A program made the position numbers and the translations under genes. Positions 30,069 to 59,423 of a stretch of DNA of 64,000 nt are shown here, in pieces. The DNA lies in the NCBI RefSeq assembly GCF_000485905.1, contig NC_022664.1, forward strand, positions 1,745,001 through 1,809,000, read 5' to 3'. Origin of the DNA: Spiribacter curvatus (GTDB lineage Bacteria; Pseudomonadota; Gammaproteobacteria; Nitrococcales; Nitrococcaceae). Under the pieces are notes generated by a model that made no database searches, was not told where the DNA came from, and worked only from the letters and a program-made list of their open reading frames with translations. Each line of letters starts with the position of its first letter. Position 1 is the first letter of the stretch.

Positions 30069-31499
30069 ATGGGAATCATCAGTGCCATCCAGCAGCGCCT
30101 TGGCGGGGACGCGGTCATCACCCCGGGACCCGCCATGGATCCCTATCTGAGCGAGCGCCGCGGCCTGTTCGCCGGTCGCCCGGCCCGGGCAGTGGTCCGA
30201 CCCGCCGACACCGGGGCGGTCGCCGCGGTGATGGAGCTCGCCGCCGCGCACGGCGTCGGGGTGGTGCCCCGGGGCGGCAACACCGGCCTTTGCGGCGGTG
30301 CCGCGGCGGCCGATCATTCCGATGTCGTGATCCTCTCGCTGGAGCGGCTCAATCGCATCCGCCGCGTCGATGCCGATAATTTCACCCTGACCGCCGAGGC
30401 CGGCTGCCTGCTGAGCGACCTTCAGGCCGCCGCCGCCGAGTCGGGGCGGCTGTTCCCGCTGAGCTATGCCGCTGAAAACGATTGCCAGATCGGCGGCAAC
30501 CTCGCCACCAACGCGGGCGGGATGAATGTGCTTCGCTATGGCAACGCCCGTGACCTGGCCCTGGGGCTGGAGGTGGTGCTGGCCGATGGTCGGATCTGGG
30601 ACGGGCTGCGCAGCCTGCGCAAGGATAACAGCGGTTATGATCTCAAGGATCTGTTCATCGGCGCCGAGGGCACCTTGGGGATCATCACCGCCGTGACCCT
30701 CAAGCTGTTCCCGCCGGTCCGTGAGCGGGCCACCGCCATCGTCGGTCTCGACAGCGCCGAGGCAGCCGTCTCGCTGTTCGGCCGGCTGCGCGCGGACAGT
30801 GGGGACACCATCACCAGTTGCGAGCTCATGGGGCGCGAGCCGCTCTCGCTCGCGATCACCCATACGCCGGACTGCCATGAGCCGCTGGCGGCGTCCTATC
30901 CCTGGTATCTGCTGGTCGATCTCACCAGTAGCGCCACTGGCGCGGGCCTGGCGCAGCGCCTCGAGCAGGCCCTGTCGGGGGCGATGCGGGGCATGGGTGA
31001 CTACCGCATTGCCGCTGACCCGGCGATGGCGGCGGACTTCTGGCGGCTGCGCAACAGCATCCCCGGCGCGCAGAAGGGGGCCGGCGCCAGCATCAAGAAC
31101 GATGTCTCGGTACCGGTCGCGGACATACCGGCGTTCATCGACGCCGCGAGCAGCGCCGTGATCGATGCCTGCCCCGGGGTCCGTCCCTGTCCGTTCGGCC
31201 ATATCGGGGATGGCAACATCCACTTCAACCTGACCCGCCCGACGGCGATGACCGATGCGGCCTTCCTGGCGCAATGGGCACCATTGACCCGCCGCGTCCA
31301 CGACATCGCGATGGCTTACGCAGGATCGTTCGCTGCCGAGCACGGCGTCGGACAGCTCAAGCCGCAGGAGGTGGCGCGGCTGAAATCACCGGTAGAGCAG
31401 GATCTGATGCGCCGGCTCAAGACCGCCCTCGATCCCGACGACCGGCTCAACCCGGGTAAGGTCGTGCCGCCCGCCGACGGACCGCCGTCAGCTGGATGA
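30069..31499 (+). CDS. FAD-linked oxidase/dehydrogenase (GlcD/D2HGDH-like)
   Basis: 476 residues. The FAD domain has VVPRGGNTGLCGGA, GGNLATNAGGMNVLRYGNARD and DLKDLFIGAEGTLGIITAVTLKLFPP. The C-terminal domain has PFGHIGDGNIHFNLT and ends NPGKVVPP, all typical of D-2-hydroxyacid dehydrogenases such as D-2-hydroxyglutarate, D-lactate or glycolate oxidase subunits. No partner GlcE or GlcF genes are adjacent, which favours a stand-alone D-2-hydroxyglutarate or D-lactate dehydrogenase. It is divergent from the YfaZ-like gene. Confidence 0.88.
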   Translation: MGIISAIQQRLGGDAVITPGPAMDPYLSERRGLFAGRPARAVVRPADTGAVAAVMELAAAHGVGVVPRGGNTGLCGGAAAADHSDVVILSLERLNRIRRVDADNFTLTAEAGCLLSDLQAAAAESGRLFPLSYAAENDCQIGGNLATNAGGMNVLRYGNARDLALGLEVVLADGRIWDGLRSLRKDNSGYDLKDLFIGAEGTLGIITAVTLKLFPPVRERATAIVGLDSAEAAVSLFGRLRADSGDTITSCELMGREPLSLAITHTPDCHEPLAASYPWYLLVDLTSSATGAGLAQRLEQALSGAMRGMGDYRIAADPAMAADFWRLRNSIPGAQKGAGASIKNDVSVPVADIPAFIDAASSAVIDACPGVRPCPFGHIGDGNIHFNLTRPTAMTDAAFLAQWAPLTRRVHDIAMAYAGSFAAEHGVGQLKPQEVARLKSPVEQDLMRRLKTALDPDDRLNPGKVVPPADGPPSAG

Positions 31500-31724
31500 C
31501 TGCCGGCGGCGCATCAGGCGCGCGGCATAGAAACTGCCCACCGCCGGGGCGAAGGTCAGCGCGGTGGTCAGCCAGATAACGGCATTGGCGGGGTCGAGGA
31601 GCAGATCGATGGCCGCCGGGCCGATCTTCATCCACAGCGCGCCGACGCCGATCAATACGATGTTCAAGGCAACGGCCAGGAATACCCAGCCCACGGTCCG
31701 AAGCAGTCGCGGCAGATCGCTCAT
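31488..31724 (-). CDS. Small hypothetical membrane protein (two segments)
   Basis: 78 residues from ATG 31724, starting MSDLPRLLRTVGWVFLAVAL. Two hydrophobic stretches are followed by a basic tail, ARLMRRRQSSS. The start overlaps the MOSC gene stop (TCATGA region at 31721-31724) and the 3' end overlaps the FAD oxidase gene by 12 bases on the other strand. I do not recognise the family. Its link to the MOSC and MTHFR-like genes is positional. Confidence 0.6.
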   Translation of the reverse strand: MSDLPRLLRTVGWVFLAVALNIVLIGVGALWMKIGPAAIDLLLDPANAVIWLTTALTFAPAVGSFYAARLMRRRQSSS

Positions 31725-32215
31725 GAGGTCGCATCCTCCAGTTCCGCGACCACCGGGTCGCCGATGTTCATCCATCCCGGCTCAAGCACCTGCGCGATGA
31801 TGCCACCATGACCGCGCATGGCGTTATAGCCGCCGATGCCCAGCGACTGCTCCATGAACGAGCAGGGGTCACAGGTGCCCGTGCCCTCGAGCAGGACGTC
31901 CCCGACCCGGAAGCGCTCACCGCGCAGGGCGTAGAGATTGATGCCACTGACCACCAGATTGCGCCGGGTGATGGCCGGATCGATGCGGGGATGCCCCATC
32001 AACGCCGCGATCACGGGCAGGTGCTCGGCCTGAATGAGTGTCACCGCGCGCTTGCCGCTGCGGCCGGCATAGCGATCGCCCACCAGACCGGTGGCATTCA
32101 CCGCCGCCGCCGTGGGCTTGTCGATGGGTGCATGGCGCGCCGGCCGCAGCCCGATCCAGTCGAGCCGGCCAGACCGTGGGTATTGACTCAGCAGCAGGCG
32201 CATCGGCGTTTTCAT
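31721..32215 (-). CDS. MOSC-domain protein
   Basis: 164 residues from ATG 32215. MOSC features are GLVGDRYAGRSGKRAVTLIQAEHL, ARRN-type ITRRNLVVSGINLYALRGERF, and the conserved cysteine in GTCDPCSFMEQSLG. MOSC domains bind molybdenum cofactor or act in Moco sulfuration and N-hydroxylated-base detoxification (YiiM-like). It lies 7 bases downstream of the MTHFR-like gene and is coupled to the small membrane protein. The activity is not known. Confidence 0.85.
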   Translation of the reverse strand: MKTPMRLLLSQYPRSGRLDWIGLRPARHAPIDKPTAAAVNATGLVGDRYAGRSGKRAVTLIQAEHLPVIAALMGHPRIDPAITRRNLVVSGINLYALRGERFRVGDVLLEGTGTCDPCSFMEQSLGIGGYNAMRGHGGIIAQVLEPGWMNIGDPVVAELEDATS

Positions 32216-32222
32216 GGTGCGA

Positions 32223-33125
32223 CTATAACCCGTTGGCGGGGGCGTCGTGGAGCGTCGCCAGCTCGTCTGCAAGCCCCACCGTCACCGTCGGCGGGATCGG
32301 ACCAATGGGCGCGAGATTGACATCCAGCGCCGGCCAATCCCGGCCCTGCGCACGCTGATGGGTGATGATCCGCGCCCAGGCCCGACGGATCTGCGCCAGC
32401 GAGCGGTCCAGCACCACGGCGTCGTCCTCGATCAGCCAGTCGTAGAGCGCATCCGAGACACTCACCCCCAGCCACAGCAGAAAGCGCAGATTGCGGGCGT
32501 TACGGATCGGGCAGAAGGCCAGCAGGATCTCCCGCGGCAGCCGATCGCGCTGCGCAAGCGCATCCAGCATCCCGATGAACGCGTCGGGCTCGTAGAGGAT
32601 CTGGCTGGTGAAGAAATCCGCACCGGCACTCACCTTCCCGGCAATCCGGTCGGCCTCGCCCGCCCGCGAGGGGATACAGATGTTGCCGATGCGCAGCGCG
32701 TCGATGGCGGTGCGCTCACGTAGCAATCGATTCGCCCGGGTGACGCTGGGGCCCGGGTAGCGCACTGAATGACGGCCGCCGCCGACCAGCACGAAGCGGC
32801 GGATGCCATAGACCTCCCAGGTCTCATTGGCCCAGTCGATCAGCGCCTGTTCGCTTGGATGATGCACCACGACGTGATTGATCATGCACTCGACGCCCAG
32901 CCGGTCGTGGAGGATGCGCGCCAGATCACGCGGCGCGAGGCGCGGCGCGAAGGGCTGCCGGCGCTCGCCCTGATCACTGCGTGAGGGCTCTTCGTGGATC
33001 TCGGGGATATTCACACTATCGAGGGGGCGGGCGGCCTGCACACGGGCCACCTTCTCGACCACCGCCTCGACGGCGGCCTGGCCACGGTGGAGCTCAGGCG
33101 GAACGGCCTCCAGAACGGTTTTCAC
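32223..33125 (-). CDS. Divergent methylenetetrahydrofolate-reductase-like protein
   Basis: 300 residues from a GTG. The length and the order of segments match the MetF TIM barrel: CMINHVVVHH, GIRRFVLVGGGRHSVRYPGPSV, KVSAGADFFTSQILYEPDAF, and LLAFCPIRNARNLRFLLWLGV. Key E. coli motifs differ: the FEFFPP entry is SVNIPEIHEEP, and the ALRGD segment with the flavin-contacting aspartate is VLVGGG. FAD binding is likely, but it may reduce another C1 or pterin compound. Canonical metF is not in the window. It leads the MOSC and small membrane genes. Confidence 0.75.
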   Translation of the reverse strand: MKTVLEAVPPELHRGQAAVEAVVEKVARVQAARPLDSVNIPEIHEEPSRSDQGERRQPFAPRLAPRDLARILHDRLGVECMINHVVVHHPSEQALIDWANETWEVYGIRRFVLVGGGRHSVRYPGPSVTRANRLLRERTAIDALRIGNICIPSRAGEADRIAGKVSAGADFFTSQILYEPDAFIGMLDALAQRDRLPREILLAFCPIRNARNLRFLLWLGVSVSDALYDWLIEDDAVVLDRSLAQIRRAWARIITHQRAQGRDWPALDVNLAPIGPIPPTVTVGLADELATLHDAPANGL

Positions 33126-33260
33126 GGATCACTTCCCTGGCTAATTCGATGGCTGAACAGCGCTGCAGTCTCGTGCGCCCCCCGGTCGCCGTCAAGTCGG
33201 GGCCGCTCACCCCGGCGGCGGGAATGTTAATCTCTACGCCTCACTTGCGAGGACCGAGTC

Positions 33261-33842
33261 ATGAAGCAAACCCTGCGTATCGTTCTGCTGATCACCGCGA
33301 CCGCCCTGCTCGCCGCCTGCAGTCAGGGCACCCAGAATCTGCGTCTGTCACCGGCGCCACCGGCGACCGAGGGGATCGCCGGCGGCGACCAGGATGTCGG
33401 CCTGCAGGTAGTGGACCGCCGCAGTCAGTCGGATCTGGGTGTTCTGGAGAACCCGAACCGCAGCATCGTCCGGCTGGTCGCCGCTCAGGATCTGGCCTAC
33501 AGCGTCCAGCTGGCCGCCGCTGAAGGGCTGCGCGGCTATGGCTTCACACCGCGGCTCTGGGATGACGGCCGGCAGCCGCGCATCGAGATCGGCATCGAGA
33601 CCCTCCGCCACGATGTCGCGGTGGGCATCCCCTACGACCTCACCACCCGGGTGAAGCTGAGTGCGGTTGCTTATGCCAATGGCGAGCGTTTCACCAGCCA
33701 GGCTCAGACCACCAGGACCGCGCAGCGCGCCCTGCCCCCCAATGCCGAGGCGAATGCCGAGGTGGTCGATGCGGCGATCAGCGAGGCGCTGGATCGCCTG
33801 CTGAACCAGGAACTCGCCGCGTTCCTGACCGGCCGTGGCTGA
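33261..33842 (+). CDS. YajG-like lipoprotein
   Basis: 193 residues. The signal peptide ends in the lipobox LLAAC, so the protein should be lipid-anchored. SQGTQNLRLSP follows, then a YajG-like body (LQVVDRRSQSDLG, LGVLENPNRSIVRL). YajG has no known biochemical role. It starts the unit that continues through otsB, GH15, otsA and dinB: the otsB GTG at 33835 overlaps its stop. Whether it shares their function is unclear. Confidence 0.82.
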   Translation: MKQTLRIVLLITATALLAACSQGTQNLRLSPAPPATEGIAGGDQDVGLQVVDRRSQSDLGVLENPNRSIVRLVAAQDLAYSVQLAAAEGLRGYGFTPRLWDDGRQPRIEIGIETLRHDVAVGIPYDLTTRVKLSAVAYANGERFTSQAQTTRTAQRALPPNAEANAEVVDAAISEALDRLLNQELAAFLTGRG

Positions 33843-49370: not shown

Positions 49371-51116
<1,746 letters not shown>

Positions 51117-51230
51117 GCTTTTCTCCTCCTGGAAGGGGATGATTCCCCCATTACTCAAGGACAGTGGCACTGGCCCATCCAATGCTTGCCCACTTCGTGC
51201 TCTACGGCTGCCGCAGCAGCCGTAAATCTT

Positions 51231-51530
51231 TCAGCCCCAGCGTAGCATCACCGCTGCATAGACAACGGCAATGCCTGAGGCGAACAAAAGGCTCGCGTCC
51301 GAAAACGCCAGCCAGATGAGATGGATATAGGCGGAACCCAGCAGGCTCATGAACAGCCGGTCGCCGCGGGTGGTCGGCACCGGCAGGAAGCCGCGCCGCT
51401 CGTAGGTCGGCATCACGACCTGCAGCACGCCGAACACCACCAGCATCAATGCAATGGCGATGAAGAAAATGGCGACCGGCTGTGTCCAGGCCATCCACGC
51501 CAGACTGAATCCTGATCCTTCGTTCATCAT
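51231..51530 (-). CDS. glpU: Small DUF2160 membrane protein of the glycerol importer
   Basis: 99 residues from ATG 51530 (MMNEGSGFSLAWMAWTQPVAIFF) with three hydrophobic segments. DUF2160 proteins occur only between the permease and binding-protein genes of GlpSTPQUV systems, and this one is in that place. Its exact role is not known; an accessory part of the transporter complex is likely. Upstream GGAG is about eleven bases from the ATG. Confidence 0.83.
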   Translation of the reverse strand: MMNEGSGFSLAWMAWTQPVAIFFIAIALMLVVFGVLQVVMPTYERRGFLPVPTTRGDRLFMSLLGSAYIHLIWLAFSDASLLFASGIAVVYAAVMLRWG

Positions 51531-51546
51531 ATCGTCGTCACTCCAA

Positions 51547-52350
51547 CTAGACGCGGCCGAGCGCGAATCCACGCGCGATGTGCTTGCGGACGAACCAGAT
51601 CACCAGCGCACCCGGCACCAGCGTCAGGACGCCGGCGGTGGCCAGCAGGCCCCAGTCGAGGCCGGAAGCGCTGGTCGTCCGCGTCATGGTGACCACGATC
51701 GGCTTGGCATCGGTGGACGTCAGTGTCCGCGCGAAGAGCAGCTCAACCCACGAGAACATGAAGCAGAAGAACGCCGTGACACCCACCCCGGAGCGGATCA
51801 GCGGCAGGAAGATCGTGATGAAGAACCGCGGCCAGCTGTAGCCGTCCAGATAGGCGGTCTCATCGATCTCCTTGGGCACGCCGGACATGAACCCCTCAAG
51901 GATCCAGACCGCGAGCGGCACCGTGAACAATGTATGCGCCAGTGCCACGGCGATGTGCGTGTCATAGAGCCCGGCACTCTGATAAAGCTCGAAGAACGGC
52001 AGCAGGAATACCGCCGGCGGCGCCATGATGTTGGTGAGCAGCCAGAAGAACAGATGCTTGTCGCCCAGGAAGTTATAACGGCTGAAGGCATAGGCCGCCG
52101 GCAGCGCCACGGTGAGCGAGATCACCACGTTCATCGCTACATAGAGCGTGGAGTTGATGTAGCCCGGATACCAGGTCGGATCGGTGAAGATCTTGACGTA
52201 GTTGGCGATCGTCAGGTCCTTCGGCCACAGCGTGAAGCTGGAGAGGATCTCCTGGTTGGTCTTCAGCGACATCATGAGCAGCCAGTAGATCGGCAGCATG
52301 AGGAAGACCAGCCAGGCGGCCAGGAAGATATAGCGTCGTTTGGAACCCAC
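51547..52350 (-). CDS. glpQ: Glycerol ABC transporter permease
   Basis: 267 residues from a GTG with six membrane segments. The EAA loop that docks the ATPase reads GVPKEIDETAYLDGYSWPRFFITIFLPL. It is the second permease of the pair, of the MalG type. It starts 3 bases after the glpP stop. It partners GlpP to form the membrane channel for glycerol. The symbol follows the rhizobial naming and is not the periplasmic phosphodiesterase GlpQ of E. coli. Confidence 0.9.
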   Translation of the reverse strand: MGSKRRYIFLAAWLVFLMLPIYWLLMMSLKTNQEILSSFTLWPKDLTIANYVKIFTDPTWYPGYINSTLYVAMNVVISLTVALPAAYAFSRYNFLGDKHLFFWLLTNIMAPPAVFLLPFFELYQSAGLYDTHIAVALAHTLFTVPLAVWILEGFMSGVPKEIDETAYLDGYSWPRFFITIFLPLIRSGVGVTAFFCFMFSWVELLFARTLTSTDAKPIVVTMTRTTSASGLDWGLLATAGVLTLVPGALVIWFVRKHIARGFALGRV

Positions 52351-52353
52351 GGC

Positions 52354-53220
52354 TTAGCCCTCCCGGTCCATGTTGAGAATGGTCAGATAGAACACATAGC
52401 TGAACAGCAGAATGATCAGGAAGTAGATCAACGAGAACGCTGCCGCCGGTCCCAGATCGAACTGACCCACCGCCATTGTGGCGAGGCTCTGGCTCAGGAA
52501 TGTCGTGGAGTTGCCGGGCCCGCCGCCGGTCAGCACGAAGGGCTCGGCGTAGATCCGGAAACTGAAGATGAAGCGCAGCAGCACGGCGATCAGGAGCACA
52601 CCCTTGAGCTTGGGCAGCTCAATGTAGCGGAACACCGCCCAGCGCGACGCGCCGTCAATGCGTGCGGCCTGGTAGAACGGATCGGGAATCGCCTGCAGAC
52701 CCGCATAGCAGAGCAGGATGACCAGTGAGGTCCAGTGCCAGACGTCCATGACCAGAACCGTCAACCAGGCATCCAGCGAGTCACCGGTGTAGTTGTAGTC
52801 AAAGCCAATGCTGTTGAGGATCACTCCGGCAAAACCGACATCCGGGCGCGAGAACACCTGCCAGATGGTACCGACCACGTTCCACGGCACCAGCAGCGGC
52901 AGCGCGAGCAGCACCAGCGACACCGAGACCCAGGGGCCCTTTTTAGGCATGCACAAGGCCAGGCCGACTCCCAGCGGGATCTGGATCAGCAGCACCGCGC
53001 TCGAGAAGATCAGCTGCCGGATCAACGCCCCGTGCAGCGCCGGATCGCGCAGCACTTCGGTAAACCAGTCCGTGCCCACGAAGAAGCGGGAGTTCGGACC
53101 GAAGATATCCTGCAGCGAGTAGTTGACGACGGTCATCAGCGGCAGGATGGCGCTGAACGACACCACCAGCACCACTGGCAGCACCATCAACCATGCCCAT
53201 TGGTATTCACGCTTTTCCAC
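52354..53220 (-). CDS. glpP: Glycerol ABC transporter permease
   Basis: 288 residues from a GTG preceded by GGGGGAGG. Six membrane segments are present, with the EAA loop AIPDPFYQAARIDGASRWAVFRYIELP. It is MalF-like in type and forms the channel with GlpQ. It follows the ATPase gene glpT by 12 bases. In this importer family two different ATPases, GlpS and GlpT, drive the two permeases. Confidence 0.9.
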   Translation of the reverse strand: MEKREYQWAWLMVLPVVLVVSFSAILPLMTVVNYSLQDIFGPNSRFFVGTDWFTEVLRDPALHGALIRQLIFSSAVLLIQIPLGVGLALCMPKKGPWVSVSLVLLALPLLVPWNVVGTIWQVFSRPDVGFAGVILNSIGFDYNYTGDSLDAWLTVLVMDVWHWTSLVILLCYAGLQAIPDPFYQAARIDGASRWAVFRYIELPKLKGVLLIAVLLRFIFSFRIYAEPFVLTGGGPGNSTTFLSQSLATMAVGQFDLGPAAAFSLIYFLIILLFSYVFYLTILNMDREG

Positions 53221-53232
53221 GTTTCCTCCCCC

Positions 53233-54303
53233 TTAACCGACGAGCTTGTCGTCGGCATACAGCAGCGCGTTATCGACGGGGAACACCACCCGTAGACCGT
53301 CGCTGTCGATTGTCCCGGATTCATCCAGCCGGACATGGACCTCATGGCCACCGAGCTGGCCTGTCACCAGCAGGTAGTCGCCCAGATCCTCGACCTTGTC
53401 GACCTTGATGAGATGCGCGGCCTCGTCCGCGCCAGCCGGGCGGATGAGCTCCGGCCGGATCCCGAGCTGCAGCCGGCCACCGGCATTCCGGGCGGCCTCG
53501 GCCATGGCCGGATCGACCGGCACGCGGATGTCACCCACCACGGCCTCGCTGCCATCCACTTCGCAGTCGAAGAAGTTCATGCCCGGGCTGCCGATGAAAT
53601 AGCCCACGAAGGTGTGCGCGGGCCGCTCGAAGAGCGCCTGTGGCGTGCCCACCTGCAGCACCTGGCCAGCCAGCATGACCACCACTTTGTCGGCGAAGGT
53701 CAGTGCTTCGGTCTGGTCGTGGGTGACATAGACCAGCGTCAGGTTGAGCTGCTCGTGTATTTCGCGCAGTTTCCGACGCAGCTGCCATTTCAGATGCGGA
53801 TCGATGACCGTCAGCGGCTCGTCGAACAGCACCGCGGCGACGTCCTCGCGGACCAGTCCCCGACCCAGCGAGATTTTCTGCTTCGCATCGGCGGTGAGGT
53901 TGTTCGCGCGTCGCTTGAGCACGTCCTCCAGGCTCAGCATCCCGGCGATGTGGTTCACGCGCCGGGTGATGTAGCCCTCGTCCATGCCCCGGTTGCGCAG
54001 CGGGAAGGCCAGATTGTCGAACACGGTCATCGTGTCGTAGATCACCGGGAACTGGAAAACCTGGCCGATGTTGCGGCGCTCGGGTGACAGGGTCGTCACA
54101 TCCTGCTCGCCGAACATCACCTTGCCCTCGGAGGGCTCGACCAGTCCGGAGATGATATTCAGCAGCGTCGTCTTGCCGCAGCCCGATGGACCGAGCAGCG
54201 CATAGGCACCCCCGTCCTCCCAGACATGCTGCATGGGCTGCAGGGCGTAGTCTCCCCCGGGGGCGTATTGATGCGCCAGATGATTGAGTTCTATTCGCGC
54301 CAT
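53233..54303 (-). CDS. glpT: Glycerol ABC transporter ATPase
   Basis: 356 residues. Walker A is LLGPSGCGKTTLLNII. Walker B is AVLFDEPLTVID, and the family signature that should be LSGGQ reads LTADAKQKISLGRGL, a strongly changed form. A TOBE domain lies at the C-terminus (LGIRPELIRPA). It hydrolyses ATP for glycerol import as a heterodimer with GlpS. The two ATPases are adjacent, separated by 14 bases, and the variant signature is compatible with an asymmetric pair. Confidence 0.9.
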   Translation of the reverse strand: MARIELNHLAHQYAPGGDYALQPMQHVWEDGGAYALLGPSGCGKTTLLNIISGLVEPSEGKVMFGEQDVTTLSPERRNIGQVFQFPVIYDTMTVFDNLAFPLRNRGMDEGYITRRVNHIAGMLSLEDVLKRRANNLTADAKQKISLGRGLVREDVAAVLFDEPLTVIDPHLKWQLRRKLREIHEQLNLTLVYVTHDQTEALTFADKVVVMLAGQVLQVGTPQALFERPAHTFVGYFIGSPGMNFFDCEVDGSEAVVGDIRVPVDPAMAEAARNAGGRLQLGIRPELIRPAGADEAAHLIKVDKVEDLGDYLLVTGQLGGHEVHVRLDESGTIDSDGLRVVFPVDNALLYADDKLVG

Positions 54304-54317
54304 TGTTCTTTTCCGCG

Positions 54318-55391
54318 TTATTGCTGCGGCGCGGCCACCAACTGGTCCGCGCTGTCGAATACGTAGGCCCGGTTAAGGTCGGCGTGCACGTCGAAGCGAT
54401 CCCCCGGATGCACCACATGCACCCCGCGCTCCTCCACGACCCAGTCATGGCCGTTGACCTCGAGATGGACATAAGTCACCGAACCGGCCACTTCCGCCAC
54501 TTCCACCGTGCCGTGCACGACAACGCGGTCATCAGCAGGCGTGACGAACAGGTGATGCGGACGGATGCCCATGGTGTAGCGCCCGGGAACGAGATCTTTC
54601 ATCTGCTCCGGCAGCGGCTGGTCGAACAGTCCCTCGACCTTGACCCGTCCGTCGTCGACCTGGATCGGCATAAGGTTCATCGGTGGGTCAGCGAATACCT
54701 GCGTCACGGTGGTATTGGCGGGATGGCGATAGCACTCCGCGGTCACACCGTGCTGGATCACCTGCCCTTCGTGGAGCACGGTGGTCTTGCCACCCAGCAC
54801 CAGGGCCTCTTCGGGCTCGGTGGTCGCATAGACCACCACCGTGTCACGGTCGGCGAACAGGTTGCGCAGCTCTGAGCGCAGCCCCTCGCGGAGCTTGTAG
54901 TCGAGATTGACCAGCGGCTCGTCGAGCAGCACCAGCTTGGCGTCGCGCACCAGCGCCCGCGCCATGGCACAGCGCTGCTGCTGCCCGCCGGACAGCTCGG
55001 CCGGCAACCGGTCGATCAGGTGATCGATCCCCAGCCGTTCGGCCTCGGTGCGCACGCGCCGGTCAATCTCGTCATCGGAGATCTTGGCCAGCTTCAGCGG
55101 CGAGGCAATATTGTCGTAGACCGACAGCGATGGATAGTTGATGAACTGCTGATAGACCATCCCCACGGAGCGCTTGCGCACCGGCACGCGGGTCATGTCC
55201 TGGCCATCCTCCATGACACGGCCGGTATTGGGCCGCTCGAGCCCCGCCATGATCCGCATCATGCTGGTCTTACCGGCCTCGGTCAGGCCCAGCAGCACAT
55301 TGAATTCGCCGCGCTGGAAGGTGAGGTTCACATCGCGCAGATGCGCCTCACCGTCAACAGTGCGATTCACCCCCTCCAGGACGAGACTCAT
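54318..55391 (-). CDS. glpS: Glycerol ABC transporter ATPase
   Basis: 357 residues. Walker A departs from the norm, LLGLTEAGKTSMMRIM, with Thr-Glu-Ala in place of Ser-Gly-Cys. The signature is regular, LSGGQQQRCAMARAL, and Walker B is LVLLDEPLVNLD. The TOBE region includes GIRPHHLFVTPAD. With GlpT it makes a heterodimer in which each partner contributes one degenerate motif. Its ATG overlaps the glpD stop by one base (TAATG). Confidence 0.9.
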   Translation of the reverse strand: MSLVLEGVNRTVDGEAHLRDVNLTFQRGEFNVLLGLTEAGKTSMMRIMAGLERPNTGRVMEDGQDMTRVPVRKRSVGMVYQQFINYPSLSVYDNIASPLKLAKISDDEIDRRVRTEAERLGIDHLIDRLPAELSGGQQQRCAMARALVRDAKLVLLDEPLVNLDYKLREGLRSELRNLFADRDTVVVYATTEPEEALVLGGKTTVLHEGQVIQHGVTAECYRHPANTTVTQVFADPPMNLMPIQVDDGRVKVEGLFDQPLPEQMKDLVPGRYTMGIRPHHLFVTPADDRVVVHGTVEVAEVAGSVTYVHLEVNGHDWVVEERGVHVVHPGDRFDVHADLNRAYVFDSADQLVAAPQQ

Positions 55392-56920
55392 TATGCAGTT
55401 GCCCTCTTTTTCTCCTGTCCCGTATACCAGGCGCTCACCCGCTCGCGCTGATCGCTATCCAACATCAGGCCCAGCTTACTGCGCCGCCAGATGGCGTCCT
55501 CGGCGGTCATCGCCCACTCATGCTCCGCCAGATAGCGGAGCTCCGCTTCGTAGCAGTCGGATCCGAAATGCTCGCCCAGGTCATCAAGCGACTGAGCGTC
55601 CCCCAGCATGGTCTCGATCCGCGTGCCGTAATTGCGCACCAGCCGCCAGGCCATCGTCTCCGGCAGCCACGGCCGCCCGCGGCGCAGCTGCGCCAGATAG
55701 GCCTCGAAGTCGCCATCGGGGATGTCGCCACCCGGCAGGGCCTCATCGCCCGTCCAGTCGGCGATGCTGGCGCCCACCAGCGGCGCGATCTGATCGACCG
55801 CCTGGCGCGCGAGGGTCCGGTACGTGGTGATCTTGCCACCGAAAACCGACAGCAGCGGCGCGCCCTTATCATCAAGATCGAGGCTGTAGTCGCGGCTGAC
55901 CGCTGAGACGTCGGACTCCTCGGACTCGTCGTAGAGCGCCCGCACCCCGGAGTAGGTCCAGACCACATCCTTCGGCGCGATCTCTTCCTTGAAATAGCGA
56001 TTCACGGCATCACAGAGATACTGGATCTCGTCGTCACTCGCGGTCGCCTCGGCGGGGTTGCCCTCGTAGGCGACATCGGTGGTGCCGATCAGGGTGAAGT
56101 CCTGCTCGTAGGGGATGGCGAAAATGACGCGGCCGTCGGAATTCTGGAAGAGGTAGGAGTCCTCGTGATCGAACATCTTTGGCACGACGATGTGGCTGCC
56201 CTTGACCAGATGCACGTCCTTGCTGTTGCTGACGGCCATCTCGCTGCCCAGGAACTTCGCCACCCAGGGGCCGGCTGCATTCACAACCGAACGCGAATGA
56301 ACATTTCGAACATCGCCCGTCACGGCATCGGTGAGCTCTACGCTCCACTCATCGTCGCCGCGCTCGGCACCCGTGCATCGGGTCCGCGGCAGCACCGTGC
56401 CACCCCGCTGTTCGACGTCCATGCAGTTGAGGACCACCAGACGCGAGTCCTGCACCCAGCAGTCGGAGTACATGAACCCCTTGGTCACGCCATCCTTGAG
56501 CGGCGCGCCGGCATAGTGGGTCTGCAGGTTGAGGCCCTTGGAGCCGGGCAGCTTGTTGCGTCCACCCAGATGGTCGTAGAGGAACAGCCCCATGCGGATC
56601 ATCCACGCGGGCCGCAGCTCTTTGACGTGCGGCATGACGAACCGCAGCGGCCAGATGATGTGCGGGGCGATGCCCATGAGCACTTCACGCTCCTTGAGCG
56701 CCTTCTGAACCAGCCGGAATTCGTAGTATTCGAGATAGCGGAGACCGCCGTGCACGAGTTTGGTGCTGGCGGAGGATGTGTAATTGGCGAGATCGCCCTG
56801 CTCGACAAGCAGCGTGCGGAGGCCGCGACCTGCCGCGTCACGTGCGATCCCTGCGCCGTTGATACCACCGCCGACGACCACCAGGTCGTAGCGGTCAGTC
56901 TGCTGACCTTCGGAAGCCAC
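55391..56920 (-). CDS. glpD: Aerobic glycerol-3-phosphate dehydrogenase
   Basis: 509 residues. The FAD dinucleotide site is DLVVVGGGINGAGIARDAAGRG, SSASTKLVHGGLRYLEYYEFRLV is the GlpD signature, and TDVAYEGNPAEATASDDEI lies in the substrate region. It oxidises glycerol-3-P to dihydroxyacetone phosphate and passes electrons to quinone at the inner membrane. It is the first gene of the minus-strand transporter operon, so uptake and oxidation are made together. A GlpR-like site is upstream. Confidence 0.97.
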   Translation of the reverse strand: MASEGQQTDRYDLVVVGGGINGAGIARDAAGRGLRTLLVEQGDLANYTSSASTKLVHGGLRYLEYYEFRLVQKALKEREVLMGIAPHIIWPLRFVMPHVKELRPAWMIRMGLFLYDHLGGRNKLPGSKGLNLQTHYAGAPLKDGVTKGFMYSDCWVQDSRLVVLNCMDVEQRGGTVLPRTRCTGAERGDDEWSVELTDAVTGDVRNVHSRSVVNAAGPWVAKFLGSEMAVSNSKDVHLVKGSHIVVPKMFDHEDSYLFQNSDGRVIFAIPYEQDFTLIGTTDVAYEGNPAEATASDDEIQYLCDAVNRYFKEEIAPKDVVWTYSGVRALYDESEESDVSAVSRDYSLDLDDKGAPLLSVFGGKITTYRTLARQAVDQIAPLVGASIADWTGDEALPGGDIPDGDFEAYLAQLRRGRPWLPETMAWRLVRNYGTRIETMLGDAQSLDDLGEHFGSDCYEAELRYLAEHEWAMTAEDAIWRRSKLGLMLDSDQRERVSAWYTGQEKKRATA

Positions 56921-56952
56921 AGGTGCCTCTCCTCCGTTTCCAATGTTGGCGA

Positions 56953-56987
56953 CTATACTGCCGCCTTTTAATGTTCGTTTTCAAACA
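56953..56987 (-). promoter_or_regulatory. glpD promoter with GlpR-like operator
   Basis: TATAGT on the minus strand (56953-56958) is the likely -10; its -35 is poor. Upstream, AATGTTCGT then TTTCAAACA (56970-56987) matches the E. coli GlpR consensus at 14 of 18 positions, with a perfect left half. The site overlaps the glpR stop codon. Confidence 0.5.
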
Positions 56988-57819
56988 TACCACCCCGCTG
57001 GTGGGCGTCAAGTGAATCCGCAGGTCCGTCATCGCTGTCGGTCACGACCAGCCGTCCGCCGTTCTCCGCCATGGCGCGGCGCACGAACGCCGGCGGTTCG
57101 GCATCGGTGTAGAGTTCATCGATCGCGCTGATATCCGCCACGCGCACCATCGCATTGCGGCCGAACTTGCTGTGATCGGCGCCGAGCAGCGTCGAGCGCG
57201 CATTGCGCAGAATCGCCTGTATCACTCGAACCTCGTGGTAATCGAAATCGAGCAATGTGCCATCGGCCTCAATGCCAGAAATACCCAGAACCGCATAGTC
57301 GACCTTGAATTGATTGACAAAATCGATGGTCGCCTCGCCGGTGATGCCCCGATCGCGCCGGCGCACCACCCCGCCGGCCACGATCACCTCGCAGCCGGGG
57401 CTATCGGCCAGCACCGTCGCCACATTGAGGTTGTTGGTGATGACGCGCAGCCCATCATGCTCGCGCAGCGCCATCGCCACTGCCTCGGTGGTCGTCCCCA
57501 GGGTGATGAACACCGAGGCCTTGTCCGGGATGCGCGCGGCGATCGCGCGACCGATCCGGGCCTTGGCCTCGGGCAGAAGGATGCGCCGCGCCTGATAATT
57601 GACGTTCTCGACACTGGAGGGCAATCCGGCACCGCCATGGTAGCGGCGCAGCAGACCGCCGCTGCACAGGGCGTTGATGTCGCGTCGGATGGTCTGGGCG
57701 GTGACGGCGAAGTGCTGCGCCAGCGCCTCGACCGAGACGAACCCCTGCTCCTGGACGAGATCGAGCATCGCCTGCTGCCGACGATTGAGCCCGACCGGTC
57801 GATCCGCTGCCCCGATCAA
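56968..57819 (-). CDS. glpR: DeoR-family repressor GlpR
   Basis: 283 residues from a TTG start with a near-perfect AGGAGGTG four bases upstream. The DeoR helix-turn-helix is FVSVEALAQHFAVTAQTIRRDINAL, followed by the sugar-phosphate-binding domain (TLGTTTEAVAMALRE). GlpR represses glp genes and is released by glycerol-3-phosphate. It lies between glpD (same direction) and glpK (divergent), and similar operators are found before all three genes. This location and the sites support local control. Confidence 0.93.
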   Translation of the reverse strand: MIGAADRPVGLNRRQQAMLDLVQEQGFVSVEALAQHFAVTAQTIRRDINALCSGGLLRRYHGGAGLPSSVENVNYQARRILLPEAKARIGRAIAARIPDKASVFITLGTTTEAVAMALREHDGLRVITNNLNVATVLADSPGCEVIVAGGVVRRRDRGITGEATIDFVNQFKVDYAVLGISGIEADGTLLDFDYHEVRVIQAILRNARSTLLGADHSKFGRNAMVRVADISAIDELYTDAEPPAFVRRAMAENGGRLVVTDSDDGPADSLDAHQRGGMFENEH

Positions 57820-57855
57820 AGCGCACCTCCTTGGGTTCGGTTGTGAGCACCGAAC

Positions 57856-57906
57856 TTGACATTTTTCGTTTGCGTTCGATCATACCGGCTTAGCACAAGG
57901 GCGCAA
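57856..57906. promoter_or_regulatory. Overlapping divergent glpK and glpR promoters with GlpR-like operator
   Basis: For glpK: TTGACA (57856-57861), 16 bases, GATCAT (57878-57883). For glpR, minus strand: TTGCGC (57901-57906), 16 bases, TATGAT (57879-57884). The two -10 elements nearly coincide. A site matching the E. coli GlpR consensus at 15 of 18 positions (57867-57884, perfect right half TCGATCATA) covers both, so one bound repressor could shut off both genes. Confidence 0.65.
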
Positions 57907-57929
57907 TCACACCGGAGGAGAGCAGCGGC

Positions 57930-59423
57930 ATGGCGGATAACAAAGGCATCCTGGCCATCGATCAGGGGACGACGAGCTCACGCGCGATTGTCTTCGATCT
58001 CGAGGGCAATATCGTGGCCACCGCGCAGGAGGAATTCCCGCAGCATTATCCGCACAGCGGCTGGGTGGAGCATGAGCCGCAGGACCTCTTCCACACCACG
58101 GTCGACACCAGCCGACGCGCGATCAAGGCGGCCAAGGCGGCGGGTGTCCACGCCCGCACCATCGGCATCACCAACCAGCGCGAGACCACGATCGTCTGGG
58201 ACCGGCGCACGGGCGAGCCCGTCCACAACGCCATCGTCTGGCAGGATCGGCGCACGGCCGAGCGCTGCGCGGCACTCAAGGCCGCCGGCCACGAGGCAAT
58301 GGTGGCGGAGCGCACCGGGCTGCTGCTCGACCCCTATTTCGCCGCCACCAAGATCGCCTGGATCCTCGACAATGTCCGCGGCGCCCGCGAGCGCGCCCGG
58401 AAGGGCGAACTCGCCTTTGGCACCGTCGACACCTGGCTGCTGTGGAACCTCACCCGGGGTCGCAGTCATGCCACTGACGCGACCAACGCCAGTCGCACCC
58501 TGCTCTTCAACATCCATCGCCAGGCCTGGGATGACGACCTCCTGCAGCTGTTCGACATCCCTGCCTCGATCCTCCCCGAGGTCCTCGACAGTGCCGATGA
58601 GTTCGGCGCCACCGAGGCCGACATCCTTGGCACCGCGCTGCCCATCGAGGGCATCGCCGGTGACCAGCACGCCGCCGTTGTCGGCCAGTGCTGCTTTCGG
58701 CCGGGCATGATCAAGAGCACCTACGGCACCGGCTGTTTCGCGCTGATGAACACCGGCACCGAGGCGGTCCCCTCCGAGAACCGCATGCTCACCACCACGG
58801 CCTACCGGATCAACGGTCAGCCCACCTATGCGCTGGAGGGGGCGATCTTCATCGCCGGCGCGGCCATTCAGTGGCTGCGCGACGAGCTCGGCATCATCGC
58901 CCACGCCTCGCAGAGCGAAGGCCTGGCCAATGATGCCGAGGCCGAGGGCCTGTATATGGTGCCGGCGTTCACCGGCCTGGGCGCGCCGTGGTGGGATCCG
59001 AACGCGCGGGGCGCGATTTTCGGGCTGACCCGCAACACCGGGGTGGCCGAGTTCGTCCATGCGGCGCTGGATTCGGTCTGCCTGCAGACCGGTGACCTGC
59101 TCGAGGCCATGGCCGATGACTCCCACACCCAGCAGGCGACGCTGCGCGTCGACGGCGGCATGGTGGCCAATAGCTGGCTGCTCCAGCGGCTCGCCGATCT
59201 GACCGGGCTGGATGTCGAGCGGCCCCGGATCATCGAGACCACCGCGCTGGGCGCGGCCTATCTGGCCGGACTGCAGCACGGACTGTATGAATCGCTGGAG
59301 AGCCTCGAGTCGCAGTGGTCGCTGGATGCCCGCTTCAAGCCGGCCATCTCCCACCAGACCCGGGAGCATATCGTCGAGGGCTGGCATGATGCCGTGCGAC
59401 GGACCCTGACCACCGGGCGCTGA
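57930..59423 (+). CDS. glpK: Glycerol kinase
   Basis: 497 residues, the usual length. The FGGY signatures are [19 protein letters not shown] at the N-terminus, [19 protein letters not shown] and [19 protein letters not shown] in the middle, with [20 protein letters not shown] near the end. It traps imported glycerol as glycerol-3-P, which is both the GlpD substrate and the GlpR inducer. GGAGGA lies before the ATG. It is alone on the plus strand, divergent from glpR. Confidence 0.97.

Follow-up and report, generated by a model that had tools for sequence, protein, structure and literature searches.

It is probable that the gene examined here, which lies in a 64,000-nucleotide stretch of Spiribacter curvatus DNA (the whole stretch that was analysed, hereafter the window), encodes the methylenetetrahydrofolate reductase that serves the methionine synthase MetH of its host, and that this enzyme, a relative of Mfr that is most likely flavin-free, replaces the canonical FAD-dependent MetF in the host's family. 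That is, Spiribacter and most of its known family relatives seem to make the methyl group of methionine with an Mfr-like protein instead of MetF. The basis for this is homology, the predicted fold, the retention of a Glu and a Gln, the fact that no canonical metF was found, and co-occurrence with MetH; from these we infer reductase activity, its direction, its independence of flavin and NAD(P)H as the donor. The sequences do not point to a flavoenzyme–molybdenum pair; they point to a divergent, flavin-free type of methylene-THF reductase that takes the place of MetF throughout the family.

The putative reductase gene, its motifs and its predicted fold

The substitution pattern marks the reductase gene (Table 1) as a real gene under purifying selection, since its nucleotide differences from an 82%-identical relative (L003) are split 28/31/111 over codon positions 1, 2 and 3. 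A Shine-Dalgarno-like AGGGAAG sits just 5′ of the GTG, within the intergenic stretch. The product is about equally close to two Pfam models, PF02219 (30.6 bits, cut-off 24) and the mycobacterial MTHFR model PF19345 (29.8 bits, cut-off 27), both matches being weak but above the cut-offs, and it fails the NCBI MetF equivalog TIGR00676 (fadh2), scoring 19.9 bits where 293.7 are required. The host genome, 99.7% complete, consists of one 1.93-Mb contig. As the preliminary description of this locus had stated, a MOSC gene and then a small membrane protein gene follow the reductase; the MOSC product matches PF03473 at 58 bits, and for the small hydrophobic protein a longer frame opens at 31775.

Table 1. 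Features of the window discussed in the text, numbered from its first nucleotide
Feature	Position	Strand	Details
Putative Mfr-like methylenetetrahydrofolate reductase gene	32223..33125	(-)	300 aa, GTG start
Key residues of the reductase			E6, E45/E46, V114-G115-G116-G117, I151-P152-S153-R154, Q175, W218-L219
MOSC-domain protein gene	31721..32215	(-)	164 aa, ATG start 7 bases past reductase stop
Small hydrophobic protein gene	31488..31724	(-)	probable start 31724, overlapping MOSC stop
Intergenic stretch	33126..33260		shared by reductase gene and divergent gene 33261-33842 (+)

An AlphaFold2 model built with 21 sequences (pLDDT 93.1, pTM 0.90) has eight predicted strands, at residues 3-6, 37-41, 80-85, 110-114, 145-150, 171-174, 199-204 and 266-271. 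The first view of the protein, as a divergent barrel of the MetF type that is without the Asp120 loop, is right. The counterpart of the MetF motif FEFFPP is LEAVPPE (residues 5-11) on strand 1, and all 21 family members compared have its E6, P9 and P10; the segment SVNIPEIHEEP, previously taken for this block, is strand 2. Likewise, E6 and Q175 are kept in all 27 family rows. In a HMMER alignment E6 pairs with Glu9 of the Mycobacterium hassiacum Mfr and E45/E46 with Glu55/Glu56; passages of PMC11094777 give Glu9 as the catalytic acid of Mfr and Glu55 as its position-D residue. By alignment, E6 would therefore be the catalytic Glu of the reductase, and the statement that the protein lacks core MetF motifs is only partly true because this Glu is present: the loss of the ALRGD Asp stands, the loss of FEFFPP does not. 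The position-D acid depends on the method, as HMMER pairs Glu55 with E45 and MAFFT has E46 as the shared invariant Glu; Glu55 is itself not strictly conserved in Mfr.

The replacement of the ALRGD loop by VLVGGG, noted at the outset, is plain in the sequence, where the counterpart reads F111-V-L-V-G-G-G117 and Asp120 is gone. The Asp120 column holds Asp in 31 of 31 MetF rows (a set picked with RGD), Pro in Mfr, Gly in all 13 Spiribacter rows and Glu in the other 14 of the 27 rows, which come from eight non-Spiribacter family members (so that the family rows divide into 13/21 Gly and 8/21 Glu), five Halomonadaceae and one Cellvibrionales sequence; all 14 have this Glu as E117. With Gly or Glu where Mfr has Pro, the pterin-binding acid may differ from that of both known classes.

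Class membership among Mfr, Cthe_2304 and MetF

The predicted fold agrees with a grouping with Mfr. Mycobacterial Mfr chains take all ten top places among the Foldseek matches in the PDB (E 3.6e-17 to 1.3e-13), and E. coli MetF comes next (E 1.4e-12). The VIA-align Z scores are 27.6 for 3ijd, 27.6 for 7wmz, 26.8 for 7wmx, 26.1 for 8bgr and 25.5 for E. coli MetF, with rows within Z 1 counted as tied; this spread is so small that fold alone cannot settle the class. Entry 3ijd, as its title states, is the structure of Cthe_2304 with two 5-methyl-THF molecules.

Sequence profiles separate the classes better than fold does. The profile of the present family matches that of Mfr at E 4e-18, that of the Cthe-like proteins at 8e-20 and that of canonical MetF at 2e-5, and the Mfr profile matches the Cthe-like profile at 3.5e-7 and MetF at 3e-5, so that, by profile, Mfr and the Cthe_2304 proteins are each closer to the lineage than to one another. 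A maximum-likelihood tree was built from 53 rows; it took 10 of the 31 MetF rows and, of C16 (a separate set of MTHFR-like proteins, discussed below), just the rows with YELIP (4 of 8 loci). The tree splits the family together with Mfr and the Cthe-like proteins from MetF, C16 and MET2 at 100/99. Within it the Cthe-like proteins stand apart (100/99), and the clade of our family with Mfr has a support of 94/78, with long-branch warnings.

The diagnostic residues follow the same division. P41, E46, G115, I151, R154, E157, R160, W218 and L219 occur in 27/27 family rows, in 4/4 Mfr rows and in 0/31 MetF rows, the last being picked by pattern (F/Y-E-..-P, RGD, TQ) from 36 loci, so that their constancy at the pattern columns, including the RGD Arg (column 115), is by construction. 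The Mfr reference consists of four sequences, the fragments 8bgr 6-221 and 7wmw 6-218 and the uncharacterised gammaproteobacterial L022 and L132, and Q175, by sequence alignment, is likewise present in all 27 and all four rows. MetF has Thr, Arg and Tyr at the P41, G115 and I151 columns; these correspond to Thr59, Arg118 and Tyr152 of E. coli MetF, which we take to be flavin contacts. Three counter-columns, G116, P206 and F215, agree with MetF and disagree with Mfr. At the E6 column, Glu is found in three of the four Mfr rows (L132 is without it) and Gly in four gammaproteobacterial Cthe-like rows, the column lying outside the 3ijd fragment used (residues 20-305). Judged by profiles, tree and diagnostic residues, the reductase groups with mycobacterial Mfr and Cthe_2304, away from canonical MetF.

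That the columns of the ALRGD Arg, the YPE Tyr and the strand-2 Thr hold Gly, Ile and Pro, as in Mfr, also weighs against a reading in which the protein is a methionine-serving methylenetetrahydrofolate reductase that still binds FAD, through different contacts. We consider this rather unlikely, even though the fold is common to FAD-dependent MTHFR (Z about 25 for the E. coli enzyme), the scores against PF02219 and PF19345 are about equal, and Glu stands at the Asp120 column in about half of the family rows (14/27). The earlier term “flavoenzyme” is probably wrong, because the MetF-motif columns have the same residues as the mycobacterial enzymes that work without flavin.

If the flavin-free reading is right, 5,10-methylene-THF would enter the barrel and be bound there together with NAD(P)H, with no bound flavin. 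Glu6 would protonate the pterin to yield the 5-iminium cation, hydride would pass directly from NAD(P)H sitting where FAD sits in MetF, and 5-methyl-THF would leave for the B12-dependent MetH. These proposed steps follow the Mfr mechanism as given in parts of PMC11094777 and PMC13001107.

The resemblance to each known class has its limits. Mfr (MSMEG_6649, M. hassiacum Mfr, Rv2172c; PF19345; PDB 7wmw-7wmz, 8bgr, 8qpj) is a TIM barrel of the same length, and by sequence alignment E6 corresponds to its Glu9 (strand 1), Q175 to Gln177 (strand 6, position C) and L219 to Leu221 (position B), with E45/E46 around Glu55 on strand 2; both have an IP-x-R motif and no ALRGD. Nonetheless, identity is only about 20-26%, the reductase has F215, P206 and a strand-4 G-G-G/E where Mfr has G-V-P, all 14 non-Spiribacter rows differ from it in their acid at the Asp120 column, and the lineage is gammaproteobacterial. 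With Cthe_2304 (3ijd; relatives L128-L131) the reductase has its best profile–sequence match (2e-19), a joint top Z score and E46, R55, R154, E157, R160, F215 and W218-L219-G220 in common, although the Gly at the E6 column of the four gammaproteobacterial relatives sets these apart. Canonical MetF (PF02219; E. coli, T. thermophilus) shares the barrel, the Glu and P-P of FEFFPP, the Gln of TQ and the proposed reaction; the reductase is without its ALRGD, its Y-P-E motif and its strand-2 Thr.

It is a tentative possibility that the family makes up a class of methylene-THF reductase of its own, the third and so far undescribed, which is flavin-free and lies between Mfr and the Cthe_2304 lineage. 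It would have ousted MetF from an entire family of gammaproteobacteria and would hold the pterin with an acid at a position that neither known class uses. If so, it would supply the missing links that the structural literature says the flavin-free branch may lack: in the passages of PMC11094777 (2024) that bear on this, flavin-free Mfr is identified only in mycobacteria, with no candidate outside Mycobacteriales investigated, and missing links are named as a possible reason for the gap that separates the Mfr cluster from the MTHFR cluster. A literature search of open-licence PMC papers found no paper on the subfamily.

Two other sets of gammaproteobacterial proteins may be mentioned here. L022:1258-2247 (-) and L132:1003-1956 (+) group with mycobacterial Mfr (100/100), and G048, the home of L022, also carries a canonical metF. 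L128-L131, L162 and L163 are Cthe_2304-like, and L162 and L163, which score ~106 bits against the family profile and keep a VLVGS strand-4 motif, look intermediate.

MetF, MetH and the MOSC gene within the host family

The genome search for a canonical metF that had been suggested as a check has been run, and the reductase is the sole PF02219 match in the host genome; this is one of the two findings that, taken together, would in that description have made it simply the normal enzyme. PF02219 was searched in 59 genomes including the host (23 of the family and 36 relatives outside it), with the 23 searched again, and no canonical MetF appeared in any of the 23 (best match 52.8 bits, the rest at most 42 bits); on these searches, a missed canonical metF was rejected. 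Outside the family, 33 of the 36 relatives have a PF02219 match of at least 246 bits, and the remaining ones hold fragments (G046, G051) or no match (G057). The reductase itself is present in 20 of the 23 family genomes; it is missing from G001 (100% complete), G002 (87% complete, 140 contigs) and G021 (660 contigs). MetH is found in 22 of the 23 (in pieces in G021), only G001 being without it. No MetE-type synthase match (PF01717) occurs in the 14 Spiribacter genomes (5 are <90% complete); 7 of the 9 non-Spiribacter family genomes have one. On the best reading, methionine synthesis draws on this protein as its working methylene-THF reductase, probably a flavin-free one. Stand-alone homocysteine methyltransferase matches (PF02574) are present in the host genome and in G001, so methyl-THF need not be the sole methyl source for methionine.

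In G016, a 551-aa frame (L170, G016:C101:27244-27951) has an N-terminal PF02219 match of 52.8 bits; its third-position G+C is lower (0.56), and it was possibly acquired. A family that we call C16 (L077:6516-7415, L079 and L080, with L086 outside the host family) comprises separate MTHFR-like genes on the MetF side. The L077 gene adjoins, by Pfam, a DAO-type oxidoreductase and a sarcosine-oxidase-alpha/GCV_T protein, and L079 and L080 have the same neighbour clusters; C16 may handle the methyl groups that the breakdown of glycine betaine releases. It has a distant PF02219 match in common with the reductase family and differs from it in joining MetF in the tree (94/89) and in keeping G-D at the ALRGD column; the family profile does not report it at E 10, and the profile–profile comparison gives E 0.002. 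As a hidden methionine MTHFR, C16 was rejected, for it is found in only part of the family and the host has no second PF02219 match; its place beside sarcosine-oxidase-type genes, where examined, also disfavours this.

Genome G001, the one complete Spiribacter genome in which the reductase is missing, offers a natural deletion. Its neighbourhood is intact, and the reductase is missing from between the divergent upstream gene and the MOSC gene. A scar of the last nine codons and the stop remains (LHDAPGNGL-stop, against LHDAPANGL-stop in the window), followed by a 7-base gap and the MOSC ATG, as in the window. The deleted stretch aligns to about window positions 33225 to 32249, with its upstream edge near 33225; the alignment also puts five bases at 32437-32433, which we take as chance. 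On its own the tblastn remnant (13 aa, E 0.16) is weak; what gives it weight is that the nine codons share with the window their stop, the 7-base gap and the MOSC ATG. G001 is without the reductase and also without MetH and MetE-type synthases, and it carries two stand-alone PF02574 matches, so that it may be able to methylate homocysteine by a folate-independent route. As a single event, the joint loss of reductase and MetH is suggestive and no proof.

The same genome bears on the MOSC gene, which the preliminary description had paired with the reductase. The MOSC gene lies 7 bases past the reductase stop in six genomes (G000, G005, G008, G010 with two copies, G012 and G013) and about touches the reductase in G007 and G011; in G017 it is >500 bases away, with the membrane gene also distant. 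The membrane gene, looked for within the neighbourhoods around these loci, follows in all nine. Four genomes (G003, G004, G006 and G009, of which only G004 is >90% complete) have reductase and membrane gene with no MOSC relative found in the genome; seven (G014, G015, G016, G018, G019, G020 and G022) have the reductase with neither gene nearby; and G001 keeps MOSC and membrane gene. Conservation of the three-gene unit is accordingly partial, with a tight reductase–MOSC pair in 8 of the 20 reductase-bearing family genomes and the others without it.

Co-transcription of reductase and MOSC is likely in Spiribacter. Since the two are separable both ways among the family genomes, there is no necessary partnership between them, a necessary unit was rejected, and the MOSC gene looks like an operon neighbour whose role is not a necessary one. 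A reading in which the protein is a molybdenum- or pterin-related enzyme partnered with the MOSC protein, and no folate reductase, would draw on the close spacing in those eight Spiribacter genomes; we find it hardly credible. The search for MOSC relatives came up empty in 11 of the 20 reductase-bearing genomes, the MOSC gene outlasted the reductase in G001, MOSC relatives with 50-56% identity occur in five order-level genomes with no or weak reductase match, and the protein is homologous to folate reductases, its relative 3ijd having been solved with 5-methyl-THF. This separability already largely refutes it.

Distribution and gene context outside the host family

The reductase is not broadly distributed. 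In a class sample of 370 genomes, scores >400 bits occur only in the host and in G015 (Arhodomonas); the matches of 61-79 bits in G187, G394, G108 and G399 are the Cthe-like L128-L131, and G001, which is within this sample, has no match. A scan that took one genome for each of 84,980 species, and was limited by two peptide patterns, returned 21 loci, including five from Halomonadaceae and one from a Cellvibrionales bin. Among 151 genomes sampled from the family to which the genome of L102 belongs, 4 score >400 bits; the occurrence there is sporadic, and such rarity suggests horizontal transfer. The 370- and 151-genome samples together speak against a broad distribution.

It is informative to consider what the homologue sits beside. 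Neighbours were tested with Pfam in L102, L077 and for one gene of L101. In L102, L104 and L108 (Halomonadaceae) the order is metK, ahcY, homologue, and in L101 the homologue follows metK. At L106:5808-5888, a 27-residue ahcY match (67%) directly precedes the homologue and may be what is left of an ahcY gene since lost. An SAH riboswitch precedes ahcY in L102 and L108; it was not found in L101, L104 or L106, even at E 1, so that the riboswitch link rests on two of the five Halomonadaceae loci, and none was found in the window at gathering score. In the Proteobacteria, passages of PMC4239095 place the SAH riboswitch upstream of ahcY in seven lineages, with metF in the riboswitch ahcY operon in all of them but Xanthomonadales. 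Taken with this operon habit, the metK–ahcY context suggests that the Halomonadaceae homologue occupies the metF slot. A canonical MetF is also present in 6/6 Halomonadaceae and Cellvibrionales genomes with the homologue, which may thus be accessory there. In Nitrococcus, the reductase comes after a gene run that reads, by eye and from N-termini, as trp genes.

The metK/ahcY context argues as well against a reductase that runs mainly in reverse, oxidising methyl-THF from the demethylation of methylated osmolytes to methylene-THF. Such a role would suit hosts that are halophiles, a reverse-running MTHFR is described for Sphingobium SYK-6 in part of PMC13001107, and the separate C16 family does lie beside sarcosine-oxidase-type genes in some relatives. 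Nevertheless, we hold it to be quite improbable, although a demethylase may lie near members other than those whose neighbours were tested with Pfam: the catabolic context belongs to C16 and not to the reductase, the reductase was lost together with MetH in G001, and the host genome has no other PF02219 candidate for making methyl-THF.

On the preferred reading, that of a flavin-free reductase serving MetH, the lineage offers flavin-free candidates in halophiles and marine bacteria (Spiribacter, Arhodomonas, Nitrococcus, Halomonas), together with a natural case of gene loss. It also carries a warning for annotation, in that genomes apparently without metF, or that only weakly pass PF02219, may still make methyl-THF.

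Elsewhere in the window, G+C falls to 0.62-0.64 at positions 50001-58000, where the frames, by eye, include sugar/glycerol ABC transporter genes beside a glycerol kinase and look ordinary.
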